DNA of 64,000 nt from Leadbetterella byssophila DSM 17132. Lineage in GTDB: Bacteria > Bacteroidota > Bacteroidia > Cytophagales > Spirosomataceae. The stretch covers positions 1,736,001 to 1,800,000 of the forward strand of contig NC_014655.1 in assembly GCF_000166395.1 (NCBI RefSeq), given 5' to 3'. Shown here in pieces: positions 42,795 through 63,636 of the stretch. The notes below the pieces were generated by a model. The model worked only from the letters and a program-made list of their open reading frames with translations, was not told where the DNA came from and did not search any database. A program made the position numbers and the translations under genes. How positions within the stretch are numbered: position 1 is the stretch's first letter; every line of letters starts with the position of its first letter.

Positions 42795-43253
42795 TTAAAT
42801 TAATGGAGCTGATCTATTCAAAGACTCGTCCAAAGAAATAATGGTTTCCGTACGCTGGATACCAGGCAACTTCTGTATTTTTTCAGCCAAAACATCTCTA
42901 AGGTGAGTGGTATCTCTACAGATCAACTTGACAAACATACTATAATTTCCCGTAGTATAATTGATACTCACAATTTCCGGAATCTGCATCAGTTCATTCT
43001 TAGCATGTTCATATAATTCCGGCTTATCCAGATATATCCCTAAAAACGCCGAAATATCCCAGCCTAGTCTCTTCACATCTATCTTGATGCTTGAACCTAC
43101 GATAATACCGGAATTCTCCATTTTTTTAACGCGTGCGTGAACTGCTCCCTGCGATAAATTCACCTTTTCACCAATTTCTTGATAAGATAACTTAGCATCT
43201 TCTAAGAGAATCCTAAGGATCTTATAGTCCGTTTCATCTATGTTCTCCTTCAT
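42795..43253 (-). CDS. Lrp/AsnC-family transcriptional regulator
   Basis: 152 aa. N-terminal winged HTH (DETDYKILRILLEDAKLSYQ, EKVNLSQGAVHARVKKMENSG) and C-terminal RAM/AsnC effector domain (SAFLGIYLDKPELYEHAKNE, VSINYTTGNYSMFVKLICRD). Normal length. It is the first gene of the minus operon Lrp-DUF1460-pepP-osmC-xerD, so it may autoregulate that operon; the amino-acid effector is unknown. The TAAATTTG element at 43283 lies 29 nt upstream. A second, different Lrp-family gene occurs at 59691. Confidence 0.93.
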   Translation of the reverse strand: MKENIDETDYKILRILLEDAKLSYQEIGEKVNLSQGAVHARVKKMENSGIIVGSSIKIDVKRLGWDISAFLGIYLDKPELYEHAKNELMQIPEIVSINYTTGNYSMFVKLICRDTTHLRDVLAEKIQKLPGIQRTETIISLDESLNRSAPLI

Positions 43254-43382
43254 TTCTTTAGTTATTAGATTTTATCAATGGTCAAATTTAAATAATATTT
43301 TGCAATAAAACACTTAAACTATATAAATTATTAAAATACTATTTTTTTTCAACAAACTCTTTAACATATCAGAAAAACACCT
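43254..43382. other. AT-rich divergent intergenic spacer
   Basis: Between the Lrp gene and the + strand RNA unit. Very AT-rich with poly-T and poly-A tracts and no ORF. It carries the minus-strand -7 element at 43283-43290. With the RNA unit and its terminators (43383-43693), it explains the 440-nt protein-free stretch here. Confidence 0.55.
43283..43290 (-). promoter_or_regulatory. -7 element of the Lrp-DUF1460-pepP-osmC-xerD operon
   Basis: TAAATTTG on the minus strand, an exact TAnnTTTG match, 29 nt before the Lrp ATG. A TTG lies only 12 nt upstream, too close for a standard -33. Confidence 0.5.
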
Positions 43383-43390
43383 TACCTTTG
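43383..43390 (+). promoter_or_regulatory. -7 element of the structured RNA gene
   Basis: TACCTTTG, an exact TAnnTTTG match, about 37 nt before the acceptor-like stem at 43427. Predicted transcription start near 43397. No good -33 TTG was found at 17-23 nt. Confidence 0.55.
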
Positions 43391-43426
43391 TATTGTAATT
43401 GAAACGGCGAGTAACGCTCTAAATAC

Positions 43427-43587
43427 TGTAGGATGACGAAACTGGCAGCCGTGCCCTCCTGTCTCGGGGGTGATGACAACAGGATAAACGTAGTGTAAGC
43501 CGGACAGGTTTAGTCTCGACTGGGGTTGACCACCAAAGTTGCACTATGGCTAACTGCATCGTGGGCGGTTCGACTCCCCCTCCTACA
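43427..43587 (+). ncRNA. Structured tRNA-like RNA of ~160 nt, identity unresolved
   Basis: A perfect 7-bp end stem pairs TGTAGGA (43427-43433) with TCCTACA (43581-43587). Inside, in tRNA order, come TG at positions 8-9, a D-arm-like hairpin (ACG/CGT stem, 11-nt loop containing CTGGCAG), and an anticodon-like hairpin (CCCTC/GGGGG, loop CTGTCTC). A T-arm-like hairpin with loop TTCGACT follows, its stem GGCGG/CCCCC having one C-C mismatch. Between the last two lie about 90 extra nt with their own pairing (CGTAGTG at 43489 with CACTATG at 43542). There is no encoded CCA. No tmRNA tag or G-U acceptor pair is seen, so tmRNA is unlikely. Candidates: a Y-RNA-like (YrlA) tRNA mimic, an inserted or degenerate type II tRNA, or a new family. 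It has its own promoter element and terminators. Confidence 0.65.
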
Positions 43588-43594
43588 GCACGTG

Positions 43595-43624
43595 AATAGC
43601 ATGGATGCGTCCATGCTATTTTCC
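43595..43624 (+). terminator. First Rho-independent terminator of the RNA gene
   Basis: A perfect 11-bp stem (AATAGCATGGA with TCCATGCTATT), TGCG loop, followed by TT and a T-rich stretch. It begins 7 nt after the acceptor-like stem, giving a transcript of roughly 230 nt. Confidence 0.85.
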
Positions 43625-43659
43625 CATTGTTTTTTAGTTTGTTGATGAAGTATAGTCAT

Positions 43660-43697
43660 ACACACAGTCTCCGCTTGAAGATTGTGTGTTTTTTTAT
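43660..43697 (+). terminator. Second terminator, abutting the hexosaminidase 3' end
   Basis: An 11-bp stem with one G-T pair (ACACACAGTCT with AGATTGTGTGT), an 8-nt loop, then TTTTTTTAT on the + strand. Oriented to stop + transcription before it runs antisense into the hexosaminidase gene. Confidence 0.75.
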
Positions 43698-45880
43698 TCT
43701 AAGCTTATCTCATCTAAAAAAACCCAGGTAGGTAAACCTTCAAATGCATGACCTACTGGCCAAGGTCCGGCATTCTTTGCCTCCACCTTTATATATTTTA
43801 CTTTCTTTCGCTTTAACTTCACTAAGACTTCACCTGCACCTTCTTTAGAAATGGGAGTAGTACTACCTAAGCTTTCGTACTTTTGCCCATCTTTAGAACC
43901 ATATACATTAACCAAGGCAGGCATTTTGATCCAGGAACCTTCTTCCACCAATACTCCAAGAACTAATTTCTTCACCTTTTGAACATCCTTTAGCTCCAGA
44001 TAAATATTGGCATCTTTTCCTTCAAAACCCACCCATTCATCAAAGTTCTTTATATCTCCCCTCTGACCGTCTGTGAGTAACCCCTTATATACTTCCCTCC
44101 GAGGTGTTTGCCCATAACTATAGGTCAAACCGGTCACTAAGGATGGCACATATTTTGTCCTATAGATTTTACTTCTTTCTTCTCCCATGAATAATGCCGC
44201 CTCAATCTCCTGTTCACCTTTCAAAGGAATGGGCCCCTCATACGTTTTTGCCCCTCCCCAAAGTTCCCCTGGTGATTTGTATTTTATAGTCCCTAAAGGG
44301 ACACTAGGAATCAAAGCCAACTTCAAGCCATCCTCTTGAACAACCTTAAACTTAACATTCAGATAAGATGAAGAGGCTCTCAAGTCCGGCCACTGCTTCA
44401 AACGCTCATAAACCCTAAGCGCGAAATCAGAATAGCCTGTCTTTTTTTTACTCCATCCCAGTTCAGCTACCGCTAATATCCGCGGAAAAAGCATATACTC
44501 CACCTGAGCTTCTGTCCGAATATACTCTGTCCATAAGTTGCCCTGCACCCCAAGTATATTCTCGGCTTCTTCAAGGTCAAAACTATAGACCTTTTCTAGA
44601 GGAAGAAGACTCCCATTAGCCAAAGGTTCCATCTCCTTTGGTCCCTGATAATAATCCAAATAGAAATGTGAAGTAGGGCTCATGATGACCTTATGGCCCT
44701 CCTTCGCCGCTTTATAGCCATGCTCTGTACCTCTCCAAGACATAACTGTGGCACCCTCAGGCGTCCCTCCCTCCATGATCTCGTCCCAACCAATAATCCT
44801 CCTACCTTTGGAAACTAAAAACGTAGAGATTCTTTTGATGAAGTACGACTGCAATTCATTTTCATCCTTCAAACCTTCTCTTTTGATCAAATCCTGGCAA
44901 TAAGCTGATTGCTTCCAGGTCACTTTTGGAGCTTCATCTCCTCCTATATGTATATAAGCAGAAGGAAAAAGATCTACTACCTCCTCCAATACACCTTCTA
45001 AAAATTGGAACGTTTGTTCTGTAGGGCAAAAGATATTCTCTTCCACTCCCCAACCTGTCCAAACCTCGTATGGTCCACCCGTGCACCCCAATTCCGGATA
45101 GGCCGCTAATGCCGCCTTAGCATGTCCGGGCATCTCAATCTCCGGAATAACTGTAATATTCTTTGAAGCGGCATATTTTACCACTTCCCTAATCTGATCT
45201 TGCGTATAAAACCCGCCATATGGTTTCTCTTCGTATCCCGCTTCCTCAGTATGCCCTAGCAGCGTTCTCTTCCTTATGCTACCTATCTCAGTAAGCTTAG
45301 GATATTTCTTGATCTCAATCCTCCAGCCTTGATCATCCGTCAAGTGCCAATGAAAGGTATTAAGCTTAAATGCTGAAATAACATCTAATAGTCGCTTGAT
45401 ATATTCCACCGAATAAAAATGACGGGCTACGTCTAACATGACCCCTCTATAGGCAAATCTGGGGGCATCTTTTATCCATAGAGCAGGAATTTGCACCAGT
45501 CGAGTACTCCTGTCCACCGGCACCGCTTGAATAAGCGTCTGAACCGCATAAAAAAATCCGGAGTAACCGGATGCTTTGATAAGGATCTTATCAGAAGAAA
45601 TATCTAATGTGTATGCCTCCTGCGGCAAGCTATAATCAACGGTTACTTGGATTTGGTTTTCCCTCTTGGCTTGAACCTTAGGAATACTTACACCTGAAAG
45701 TTGATTGATCTTATGAAGCAGGGGAGATAGAGCATCTTCCCCTGTTTTATTTTCAGCAAAGAATGTAGTTTCCGCATTAAATGTAAATTCTCCTTTTTTG
45801 GGGAGCACTACCTCCGGTTGTGGCAAAAAATGTTGAGCCTGACAGAGTACACTTAATAAACAGAATAGTATTATTTTCAT
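43694..45880 (-). CDS. Beta-N-acetylhexosaminidase, GH20, exported
   Basis: Releases terminal GlcNAc/GalNAc by substrate-assisted catalysis. 728 aa: signal peptide ~1-16 ([16 protein letters not shown]), GH20b domain ~20-140, GH20 barrel ~142-500 with [40 protein letters not shown] and the catalytic pair D315-E316 in [13 protein letters not shown]. The C-terminal ~200 residues form a beta-sandwich resembling a discoidin/F5-8C carbohydrate-binding module ([18 protein letters not shown]). The start overlaps the ribBA stop by 4 nt, an unusual partner for a glycosidase. Likely periplasmic. Confidence 0.94.
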
Positions 45881-59690: not shown

Positions 59691-60149
59691 TTATTCTCCA
59701 AGTACAGAGGACATCTTTGCCTCTGTTATCACAAAATTAGACTGTGCCTCCCCAATATTAGGCAAAGCAGCCAGTTTATTTAGAATAAAGTGCTTGTACT
59801 CGTCCATATCGCTCACTATCACCTTCAACAGGAAGTCTGATTCACCGGATATACAAAAACACTCCACTATTTCCGGAATACTCTGTACATCCTCTTCAAA
59901 CCGCTTCAAATACTCTTGGCTGTGTTCTTTTAAGGATACCTTCACAAAGACCATCAGATCCTTCTTCAACTTCTTAGGATCAAGTTCTATGGTATATCTT
60001 TTGATCAATCCATCCCTACGTAATCGTTTGATACGTTCATGTACCGGTGTAGTGGTAAGATTTAGCTCATAGGCTATCTGACGGTTTGTAGCTAAACCAT
60101 CTCTTTTTAATATCTTAAGAATCTTGAGATCTACAGGATCTATAACCAT
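59691..60149 (-). CDS. Lrp/AsnC-family transcriptional regulator (second)
   Basis: 152 aa. HTH: DPVDLKILKILKRDGLATNR, ELNLTTTPVHERIKRLRRDG. Effector domain: MVFVKVSLKEHSQEYLKRFE, VECFCISGESDFLLKVIVSD. Normal family size. It differs clearly from the paralogue at 42795 in both halves, so this is not a recent duplication. It lies 109 nt upstream of proC but in the same direction, so regulation of proline or other amino acid genes is possible (inference). Confidence 0.93.
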   Translation of the reverse strand: MVIDPVDLKILKILKRDGLATNRQIAYELNLTTTPVHERIKRLRRDGLIKRYTIELDPKKLKKDLMVFVKVSLKEHSQEYLKRFEEDVQSIPEIVECFCISGESDFLLKVIVSDMDEYKHFILNKLAALPNIGEAQSNFVITEAKMSSVLGE

Positions 60150-62187: not shown

Positions 62188-63636
62188 TTATTTTAATTTT
62201 TCGATTAAAAGCTTATTTACTTCTTTAGGATCTGCAGAACCGCCTGAGAGCTTCATCACCTCACCTACAAATAATCCCAACAGACCCTTCTTACCTTTTT
62301 TATATTCTTGCACCTTTCCACTGTGCTTCTCTAAAACTTCATCAATCCAAGTACCCAAACTCCCGGAATCCTGAGTCAACACCCAACCGTTTTCTTCGGC
62401 AATGGTCATCACAGCCAATTCAGGAGTCTCTTTCAAATGATTTAAAACCTTCTGGGCTGCAGTATGACTTATGGCGCCGCTTTCTACCGCATGAATCAAC
62501 TCAGCCAGTTTCTTAGGCCGTATAGGATAGTCAGATATTCCAATTGTAGACTCATTCAATTCCCCGCGAATAGTAGACGTTAACCAATTGGCCACCGCCT
62601 TTTTATTTTCAGTATATTGGCAAGTTTCCAAATAGTAATCACTCCACTCCTTCTCCTCTGCCAATACAAAAGCCTGATCTGCTAATAATCCATCTTCACT
62701 TACAAATCTATCAAACAATTCCACTGGTAGAGCGGGCAATTCAGCCTTATACTTTAGAAGTTCTTCTTCCAAAATTTCTATGGGAGCAAGATCTGGCTCT
62801 GGGAAATAACGATAATCATTGGCAGTTTCTTTTACCCGCATTCCCTCTGTTACCCCAGTTTCCGGTATAAAAGTTCTGGTTTCCTGTATAATTTGATCAC
62901 CCTTACTCAAGATTTCCGACTGCCGTTTCACTTCATATTCTGCCGCTCTTTGAAGAAAACGTATAGAGTTCATGTTTTTGATCTCCACTTTTGTGCCCAA
63001 TTCAGAACTACCTTTTGGCTTTAACGATACGTTTAAATCTGCACGAAGAGATCCTTCTTCCATGTTTCCGTCACTAATCCCTAAATTACGTACTATTCTC
63101 CTAATTTCGGCAAGATAACCTGCGGCTTCCTCAGGAGAACTTATGCAGGGATAAGAAACAATCTCCAATAAAGGAGCCCCTGCCCTATTGTAATCTAATA
63201 AAGTACCATCTATACCATGTACGGATTTCCCTGCATCTTCTTCCATATGGATATGATGAACTTGGACAGTGTGCTTTTTATATTCCCTACCCTCCTTTAG
63301 CATGAAGGATACAGCACCTCCAACACAAACAGGCCTTGCATCCTGAGTAATTTGATAACCTTTAGGTAAATCCGGATAGAAGTAGTTTTTACGATCAAAA
63401 TAGTTAATCTTATTGATTTCCGAACCAAAGGCCAAACCTAGCTTCACAGCGCTTTCTACCACAGCCCTGTTAGTTCGCGGCAAAACCCCTGGATGCGCTA
63501 AAGTTAGCACACTGATATTTTGATTTGGATCATCTCCAAAACTATTATGATCTGAAGCAAATATTTTACTCTTTGTATTTAATTGGCAATGCACCTCTAA
63601 ACCGATCACCACATCAAACTCCATTTGTATTTTCAT
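62188..63636 (-). CDS. gatB: Aspartyl/glutamyl-tRNA(Asn/Gln) amidotransferase subunit B
   Basis: tRNA-binding kinase subunit of GatCAB; it activates misacylated Glu-tRNA(Gln) for amidation. 482 aa: EFDVVIGLEVHCQLNTKSKI, YFYPDLPKGYQITQDARPVC, GAPLLEIVSYPCISSPEEAAG, DLNVSLKPKGSSELGTKVEI and DYRYFPEPDLAPI; C-terminal YqeY/helical tail (residues ~300-482). gatA and gatC are not in the window. TATTTTTG lies just 7 nt before the ATG. An alternative ATG four codons downstream would give MEFDVV, also plausible. Confidence 0.96.
   Translation of the reverse strand: MKIQMEFDVVIGLEVHCQLNTKSKIFASDHNSFGDDPNQNISVLTLAHPGVLPRTNRAVVESAVKLGLAFGSEINKINYFDRKNYFYPDLPKGYQITQDARPVCVGGAVSFMLKEGREYKKHTVQVHHIHMEEDAGKSVHGIDGTLLDYNRAGAPLLEIVSYPCISSPEEAAGYLAEIRRIVRNLGISDGNMEEGSLRADLNVSLKPKGSSELGTKVEIKNMNSIRFLQRAAEYEVKRQSEILSKGDQIIQETRTFIPETGVTEGMRVKETANDYRYFPEPDLAPIEILEEELLKYKAELPALPVELFDRFVSEDGLLADQAFVLAEEKEWSDYYLETCQYTENKKAVANWLTSTIRGELNESTIGISDYPIRPKKLAELIHAVESGAISHTAAQKVLNHLKETPELAVMTIAEENGWVLTQDSGSLGTWIDEVLEKHSGKVQEYKKGKKGLLGLFVGEVMKLSGGSADPKEVNKLLIEKLK

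Follow-up and report, generated by a model that had tools for sequence, protein, structure and literature searches.

A conserved tRNA-like RNA family of Bacteroidota, often divergent from an asnC-type gene, is a candidate carrier for asparagine synthesis

In E. coli, the regulator AsnC activates asnA, and the two genes stand in a divergent arrangement. Other bacteria make asparagine on a tRNA; in Bdellovibrio bacteriovorus, as excerpts of the published account present it (PMC4206432), this goes together with GatCAB and AsnRS and with the absence of AsnA and AsnB of the E. coli type. Bacterial GatCAB recognises the U1-A72 pair, and the same excerpts discuss why bacteria having both AsnRS and GlnRS keep this enzyme, a non-discriminating AspRS being required for the route (PMC4206432). 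tRNA-shaped RNAs that stand apart from the ordinary set are also on record. tRNA-Other of Bacillus cereus, in the available part of its description, lies at a genomic island and is poorly charged with lysine in vitro (PMC3399842), and the allo-tRNAs, in excerpts of PMC7609411, have acceptor and T stems of 8/4 or 9/3 bp and are found in Clostridia, Proteobacteria and Acidobacteria. Here we describe an RNA family of Bacteroidota that invites comparison with each of these systems.

The RNA gene lies in a 64,000-nt stretch of Leadbetterella byssophila, hereafter the window, in whose numbering all coordinates are given (Table 1); the genome is a single contig of 4,059,653 bases. It sits between the gene for an AsnC-type regulator and a large gene (43694-45880, minus strand). 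The promoter element, the end stem CTGTAGG/CCTACAG, the three arms in tRNA order and the two terminator-like hairpins pointed out in the initial annotation are all in the sequence. The 7-bp end stem exists, and the tRNA register shifts the acceptor stem to UGUAGGA/UCCUACA (43427-43433/43581-43587), with G73 at 43588 and C74 at 43589. It is also correct that no full CCA is encoded, C74 being present all the same. This ending is not unusual, since 23 of the 26 tRNA genes examined among those of the same genome (L102-L142) likewise encode N73 and C74 and no further CCA. The supposed C-C mismatch in the T stem is more plausibly a single bulged C, the window's family having one additional base there in the alignment. 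The initial annotation named neither the AsnC-type neighbour nor the Asp identity positions or U1-A72.

Table 1. Features of the RNA locus in window coordinates
Feature	Position	Strand	Evidence or remark
AsnC-type regulator gene, Lrp/AsnC family, 152 aa	42795..43253	-	divergent from RNA; PDB and E. coli comparison
TAnnTTTG element TACCTTTG, presumed Bacteroidota-type promoter	43383..43390	+	enriched upstream of copies
tRNA-like RNA, position -1 to C74	43426..43589	+	BLASTN, alignment, covariation, covariance model
Acceptor stem 5' strand UGUAGGA (U1-A7)	43427..43433	+	U1, G2, U3 invariant, 87/87
D arm, 3-bp stem, Leu-like loop with G18 G19	43436..43452	+	alignment, covariation
Anticodon arm; loop CUGUCUC at 43459-43465	43454..43470	+	covariation, comparison with own tRNA-Asp
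Long variable arm: basal stem, internal loop GAUAAA/CUAA, distal stem, motif GGRUNGACCAC	43472..43560	+	covariation
T arm, 5 bp with one bulged C, loop UUCGACU	43563..43580	+	alignment, covariation
Acceptor 3' strand UCCUACA, discriminator G73, encoded C74	43581..43589	+	A70, C71, A72, G73, C74 each 87/87
Terminator-like hairpin and short T run	43595..43622	+	by eye; paired in fold
Conserved downstream motif TTTTTAGTTTGTTGATGAAGT	43631..43651	+	38/188 distinct copies
Second terminator-like hairpin and T run	43660..43689	+	terminator scan
gatB, GatCAB subunit	62188..63636	-	TIGR00133, 507.6 bits; ORF

The signals flanking the RNA recur in its relatives. A TAnnTTTG element, which we take to be a promoter of the Bacteroidota type, occurs in the segment 15-75 nt upstream of 106 of the 188 distinct copies, against a mean of 7.4 in shuffled sequences and 6 on the other strand. 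A run of at least five T lies within 120 nt downstream of 163 of the 188 (shuffled mean 78; runs of five A, 74). The more distal hairpin of the window was the sole one listed by a terminator scan (1 found, 0.2 expected); the proximal one was read by eye and is paired in the predicted fold. TTTTTAGTTTGTTGATGAAGT, which has a single copy in its own genome, was found with at most two mismatches within 250 nt downstream of 38 of the 188 distinct copies. In the window it lies beyond the RNA's own terminator and is followed by the second one, and it may belong to a second small transcript. Beside one copy (L086:1165-1660), tandem repeats of about 170-180 bp, noticed by eye, contain the copy's 3' flank and terminator.

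BLASTN with a 246-nt query found the RNA in 43 of 59 genomes, its own included. A covariance model built from 29 copies (alignment A1) was then run on 15 of the 16 BLASTN-negative genomes and revealed two members, in G055 (109 bits) and G041 (95 bits); in each of the other 13 the best match was an ordinary tRNA-Leu, as identified by ARAGORN. The sixteenth genome, G047, holds a 78-nt member that lacks the long arm (L097, 67.6 bits). Across the phylum the model places the RNA in 41 of 395 genomes, namely 40 at 88 bits or more, the window's own included, and G047. Matches at E≤0.01 occur in 377 of the 395; the weaker ones listed match ordinary class II tRNAs in size, and the strongest of these (L101, 63.3 bits) is a tRNA-Leu, as is every one of the 14 sub-threshold matches examined. 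Genomes are called RNA-negative when they have no model match of at least 85 bits, a definition that diverged copies could escape (the armless L097 scores 67.6) and under which the best match was identified as tRNA-Leu for the 13 rescanned genomes.

Among named genome records, of which 80 out of at least 120 were listed, the RNA occurs in records that are Bacteroidota by title, except for one Ignavibacteriales and one styled 'bacterium' only. Genera with the RNA among the matches listed include Spirosoma, Dyadobacter, Cyclobacterium, Algoriphagus, Echinicola and Fulvivirga, and further taxa are Pedobacter, Mucilaginibacter, Chitinophaga and Saprospiraceae; for several of these genera the phylum is presumed. 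The collection comprises 193 distinct sequences, 78-212 nt in length, and several genomes carry tandem or additional copies. In the Rfam check that the initial annotation had proposed, no family reached its gathering score in the window, and ARAGORN made no call on the RNA. One Rfam match at E≤10 fell within 43000-44000 (0.72, at the terminator, far under the gathering score), and six relatives gave seven matches, every one below the gathering score. We found no description of the RNA in open-licence PMC papers, preprints aside. tmRNA, named beforehand as a family whose match would refute the proposal, was rejected: there is no Rfam or ARAGORN tmRNA match at the RNA, and the tmRNA of this genome is a separate gene (G000:876405-876782). 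The existence of a conserved RNA family with no Rfam match is firmly established, in line with the early suggestion of a tRNA mimic or an undescribed family, and the function proposed for it below is likely.

The molecule forms a cloverleaf with a 7-bp acceptor stem, a D stem of three pairs and anticodon and T stems of five pairs each. A long variable arm lies between the last two, which are 92 nt apart in the window copy. The covariation expected in relatives was found. In alignment A1, 94.4% of the cloverleaf cells pair, compared with 47-58% in slid controls, and 20 of the 38 pairs and 123 cells are changed on both sides, compared with 37.5 cells in shuffles. Covariation extends to the D and anticodon stems, the latter with compensation in L049 and L051. 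A set of 103 distinct rows found by pattern gave 95.6% pairing, with 26 pairs and 522 cells changed against 142 in shuffles; this alignment was fitted to the model, its anticodon arm is partly dictated by the search pattern, and 9 of its 103 rows are also in the other two alignments. The elbow positions U8, A14, A15, U48, G53, U54, U55, C56 and A58 are invariant (87/87), and the D region is identical at 16 of 20 positions to that of the genome's own tRNA-Leu(UAG), and at 8 of 20 to that of its tRNA-Asp.

Single-sequence folding gave no signal (z -0.70 and -0.28), and the window copy, folded freely for minimum energy, pairs the D/anticodon region otherwise, at -53.7 kcal/mol versus -45.0 with the cloverleaf enforced. 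This alternative, which RNAalifold also offers, was set aside: its two differing helices have 0 compensatory changes, and it breaks in one or two rows, which the alignment identifies as L049 and L051. There may nevertheless be a structural switch between the cloverleaf and the alternative fold. Mimicry of the anti-Shine-Dalgarno sequence by CCUCCU of the anticodon stem was likewise discarded, since L049 and L051 have lost CCUCCU. Long-arm copies share GGRUNGACCAC in their distal variable arm (91 of 193 distinct sequences), possibly a protein-binding or tertiary element. Six tandem pairs (L070, L077, L078, L197, L200, L219) join a long-arm copy that has this motif to a short copy that does not, and in L148 both copies have it.

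The acceptor end and the anticodon loop carry marks of two enzymes. Excerpts of a survey of bacterial tRNA identity give G73, G10, G34, U35, C36 and C38 as the aspartate set, with G34, U35, C36, C38 and G73 as its strong determinants, and G1-C72 as the first pair of tRNA-Asp (PMC9976931). We counted these positions in 87 copies (85 distinct; alignments A1 and A2, gathered by BLAST or the model with no loop pattern). U35, C36, C38 and G73 are each present in 87/87 and G34 in 82/87, the exceptions being A34 in L049 and L097, C34 in L089 and L090, and U34 in L079; outside the set, L266 also has A34. G10 is found in only 16/87 and the G1-C72 of tRNA-Asp in 0/87. The RNA carries nearly the whole putative recognition set of bacterial AspRS, G10 being the exception. 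Its first pairs are U1-A72 and G2-C71, each in 87/87, and in the pattern-found set of 105 U1-A72 occurs in 104, with U1 in 104, G2 in 105 and U3 in 103. Among 26 tRNAs of the same genome (of 43 matches over the cut-off), only those for Asn and Gln start with U1-A72, and the normal tRNA-Asp(GUC) present there has G1-C72.

The loop of the RNA, CUGUCUC, is one letter apart from the CUGUCAC of that tRNA-Asp. Position 37 is U in 76, C in 7, G in 4 and A in none of the 87 copies, and U33 is kept in 75. Since no copy has A37 and U33 is not strictly kept, normal decoding is unlikely, which agrees with the earlier doubt that this could be a working tRNA. Invariant AspRS positions beside variable positions 33 and 37 suggest a loop fixed for AspRS and looser for the ribosome; most copies keep U33 and GUC, however, so that GAC might still be decoded.

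The neighbouring protein has E. coli AsnC as its best PDB match (2cg4, E=2.1e-29, compared with 1.8e-12 for Lrp, 2gqq) and is 39.6% identical to it. The NCBIfam AsnC equivalog is its top model, under the cut-off (149.7 of 227 bits), and E. coli AsnC outscores Lrp in 122/122 loci having the gene. By these scores, the predicted regulator is AsnC-type rather than Lrp. An asnC-type gene is divergent from the RNA in 40/42 order-level, 26/42 phylum-level and 51/80 named loci, three sets that overlap, with at least 7 loci in common; the distance, measured from the AsnC match, is 122-397 bp. In 2/42, 16/42 and 29/80 loci, respectively, no AsnC-like gene was found in the stretch examined around the RNA. 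Eight RNA-positive genomes with no adjacent asnC have an AsnC-type gene elsewhere (47-57% identity). At 23 loci of asnC-like genes, in RNA-negative genomes or genomes having the RNA elsewhere, no RNA copy was found alongside at E≤1. Among the 20 RNA-negative genomes surveyed, an AsnC match of at least 45% identity occurs only in G051, G060, G178 and G083, all of which have AsnB, and four other AsnB genomes have no such match. The 18 loci of asnC-less RNA copies that were read showed no neighbours shared across families. Near two such copies (L064, L069) lies a gene that by eye resembles peptidyl-tRNA hydrolase ArfB.

GatB was surveyed with TIGR00133 in 80 chosen genomes whose RNA status came from BLASTN and the covariance model, the presence of GatCAB being judged from GatB alone. 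It was found in 39/39 RNA-positive and 11/41 RNA-negative genomes (Fisher 4e-13, a value inflated by relatedness). Most of the contrast lies at class level (17/17 versus 1/28). Within families it is 2/2 versus 0/3 (f22) and 11/11 versus 0/2 (f23), and inside the window's order 21/21 versus 10/13 (p=0.048), a weak contrast that lowers the odds of the interpretation below and of its broader form. Three RNA-negative genomes of the window's family (G023, G028, G030) have as their only GatB match a divergent one of 354-367 bits, lying within an open frame of 876-1106 aa and possibly part of a fused amidotransferase. In the window itself the gatB gene is 19 kb away from the RNA, and close to gatB stand another Lrp-family-like gene (59691-60149) and a proC-like gene (names by eye). 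The nearness of gatB to the RNA looks accidental; in G013 and G222 the two are far apart.

In 40 of the 80 genomes we searched with a concatenated query of E. coli AsnRS, GlnRS, AsnB and AsnA at E≤1e-50, a threshold that weaker AsnB types would escape. The 20 RNA-positive genomes had AsnRS in 20 (weakly in G330, 41%), GlnRS in 12, AsnB in 0 and AsnA in 4 (G045, G047, G218, G222); the window's own genome has AsnRS and GlnRS, and neither AsnA nor AsnB was found there at this threshold. AsnB was present in 7 of the 9 RNA-negative, GatB-negative genomes; in the 11 RNA-negative, GatB-positive ones AsnB was found in 1 and AsnA in 0, 10 being without both. AsnB and the RNA are thus mutually exclusive in this 40-genome sample (0/20 versus 8/20, p=0.003, relatedness overstating the p values), while for AsnA or AsnB the counts are 4/20 and 8/20 (p=0.30), and among RNA-negative genomes of the window's order AsnB occurs in only 2/11. 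Ten genomes that have GatB and lack the RNA, AsnA and AsnB mean that the RNA is not the sole answer to the asparagine gap, and in the 8/20 RNA-positive genomes where GlnRS was not found, Gln-tRNA could explain GatCAB. Two AsnA-bearing genomes, G047 and G222, have an RNA that has lost G34, that of G047 also being without the arm. The AsnA-bearing G218 and G045, however, have a normal RNA loop, and in G053 (L049) G34 is lost with AsnA and AsnB absent, so that a link between AsnA and loss of G34 is suggestive at most.

The RNA family with its structure and identity positions, its linkage to AsnC, its co-occurrence with GatB and the lack of E. coli-type AsnB are observed, and they point to a model, to which we give a probability of roughly 0.55, in which the RNA would be a dedicated tRNA, largely withdrawn from decoding, that serves AspRS and GatCAB as the carrier for making asparagine. 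Its own promoter would drive transcription of the RNA, controlled by the divergent AsnC-type regulator, and the transcript would mature as tRNAs do, G73-C74 being encoded and the remaining CCA added. AspRS would then read G34-U35-C36-C38 and G73 and load aspartate; GatCAB would read U1-A72 and amidate it to asparagine on the RNA; and the asparagine would be released or passed on, feeding AsnRS. We infer all these steps, release being the least supported. The non-A37 loop and the large variable arm may keep the Asn-loaded RNA off Asp codons; were it to decode GAC, asparagine would be misplaced for aspartate, which would explain the altered loop. A separate RNA with an Asp anticodon would also mean that a non-discriminating AspRS is no longer required. 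In its broader form, the proposal is that many Bacteroidota make free asparagine on such an RNA, a recyclable cofactor of AspRS and GatCAB whose gene stands where E. coli has an asparagine synthetase gene beside asnC; to this we would give slightly less than even odds. Physiology fits, since an excerpt of PMC7311316 tables Echinicola vietnamensis and a Pedobacter strain as making all 20 amino acids, and the RNA is found in these genera. Counting against an asparagine cofactor are the scarcity of G10 (16/87), the lack of G1-C72, and the loss of G34 in 5/87 copies and in L266.

Other uses of the same features have to be weighed. Scaffold tRNAs occur in transamidosomes, and the RNA could bind AspRS and GatCAB there and aid amidation of Asp-tRNA(Asn) while carrying no amino acid itself, as its recognition marks for both enzymes, its co-occurrence with GatB and the six tandem pairs of a long motif-bearing and a short motif-less copy would allow. 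We consider this unlikely, since the invariant G73-C74 and intact acceptor end suggest that charging matters, an AspRS able to charge tRNA-Asn would be needed, and the 78-nt L097 does without the arm. Somewhat less probable still is a purely regulatory sensor, in which the RNA or its Asp/Asn charge would inform the AsnC circuit of Asp/Asn status and play no part in biosynthesis. The tight divergent linkage, at many loci, to an AsnC-type gene would suit it, as would the restriction of AsnC matches of at least 45%, among the 20 RNA-negative genomes, to four that all have AsnB; such a sensor does not predict the absence of AsnB, nor the presence of GatB in 39/39, and many RNA copies have no adjacent asnC.

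Just below the sensor we place an unusual additional tRNA-Asp that reads GAC codons during translation. The GUC anticodon of most copies, U33 in 75/87, the AspRS determinants and the ARAGORN call of tRNA-Asp for L097 favour it, but position 37 is never A, positions 33 and 34 drift in some copies, U1-A72 replaces G1-C72 in 87/87 beside a normal tRNA-Asp(GUC) in the window's own genome, and a role in translation leaves asnC, GatB and AsnB unexplained. It is very improbable that the RNA is a serine acceptor or has some other class II use, with SerRS reading the long arm and G73. Of the features common to bacterial Ser identity in the excerpts of PMC9976931, it does have G73, G2-C71, mostly R4-Y69 and the long arm; A72, however, stands in place of C72 in 87/87, the D region resembles that of tRNA-Leu, SerRS would not explain the invariant U35, C36 and C38, and L097 has no long arm. 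The bacterial Y RNA proposed in the initial annotation fares worst. Y RNAs of the YrlA group hold a tRNA-mimicking domain and bind Ro60/Rsr (TROVE) proteins. Only tRNA mimicry speaks for such a relationship here, and we give it hardly any credence: PF05731 (TROVE) has 0 matches in the genome at E≤0.001, with a positive control in Deinobacterium, Rfam 15 gives no match at the gathering score, and the entire molecule is one cloverleaf, where a Y RNA has a tRNA-like domain. An allo-tRNA was rejected on its 7/5 stems, which are not 8/4 or 9/3, and on the extra pair -1:73, which fails in 8/29 copies.

If asparagine is indeed made on this RNA, the family would be new and have a role in metabolism, and it would help to explain why some bacteria that have AsnRS and GlnRS keep GatCAB: a cell with an ordinary, discriminating AspRS could make asparagine on RNA via a separate carrier that the ribosome uses poorly. 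For annotation, it would indicate a possible route to asparagine in several genera where the RNA was found, among them Spirosoma, Dyadobacter, Pedobacter, Mucilaginibacter, Chitinophaga and Algoriphagus.

The RNA resembles several described systems in part. With the allo-tRNAs, as far as the excerpts go, it shares a long variable arm and an anticodon mismatched to its class II body, GUC being common among them, but it has 7/5 stems and comes from Bacteroidota (PMC7609411). Like tRNA-Other in the available description, it is tRNA-shaped and probably not for decoding; it differs in its link to asnC, its intact elbow and its Asp and GatCAB marks (PMC3399842). From tRNA-Leu, whose class II body, 3-bp D stem and D loop it shares, it departs in G73 (A73 in its own genome's tRNA-Leu), U1-A72, the U35-C36-N-C38 loop and a usually much longer arm. 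The locus recalls the asnC-asnA pair of E. coli, with an AsnC-type regulator divergent from a presumed asparagine-making gene, except that the RNA gene stands in place of the gene for the AsnA enzyme. In tRNA-dependent asparagine synthesis, as excerpted for Bdellovibrio bacteriovorus, we find the same combination of GatCAB and AsnRS, with no E. coli-type AsnA or AsnB found at E≤1e-50 (16/20 RNA-positive genomes here), the same U1-A72 pair and the same order of Asp, then Asn, on the RNA, which in our case is predicted (PMC4206432). Compared with that pathway, the Bacteroidota would use a separate RNA with an Asp anticodon and a decoding-poor loop beside a normal tRNA-Asn, and a separate RNA of this kind would suit a discriminating AspRS.
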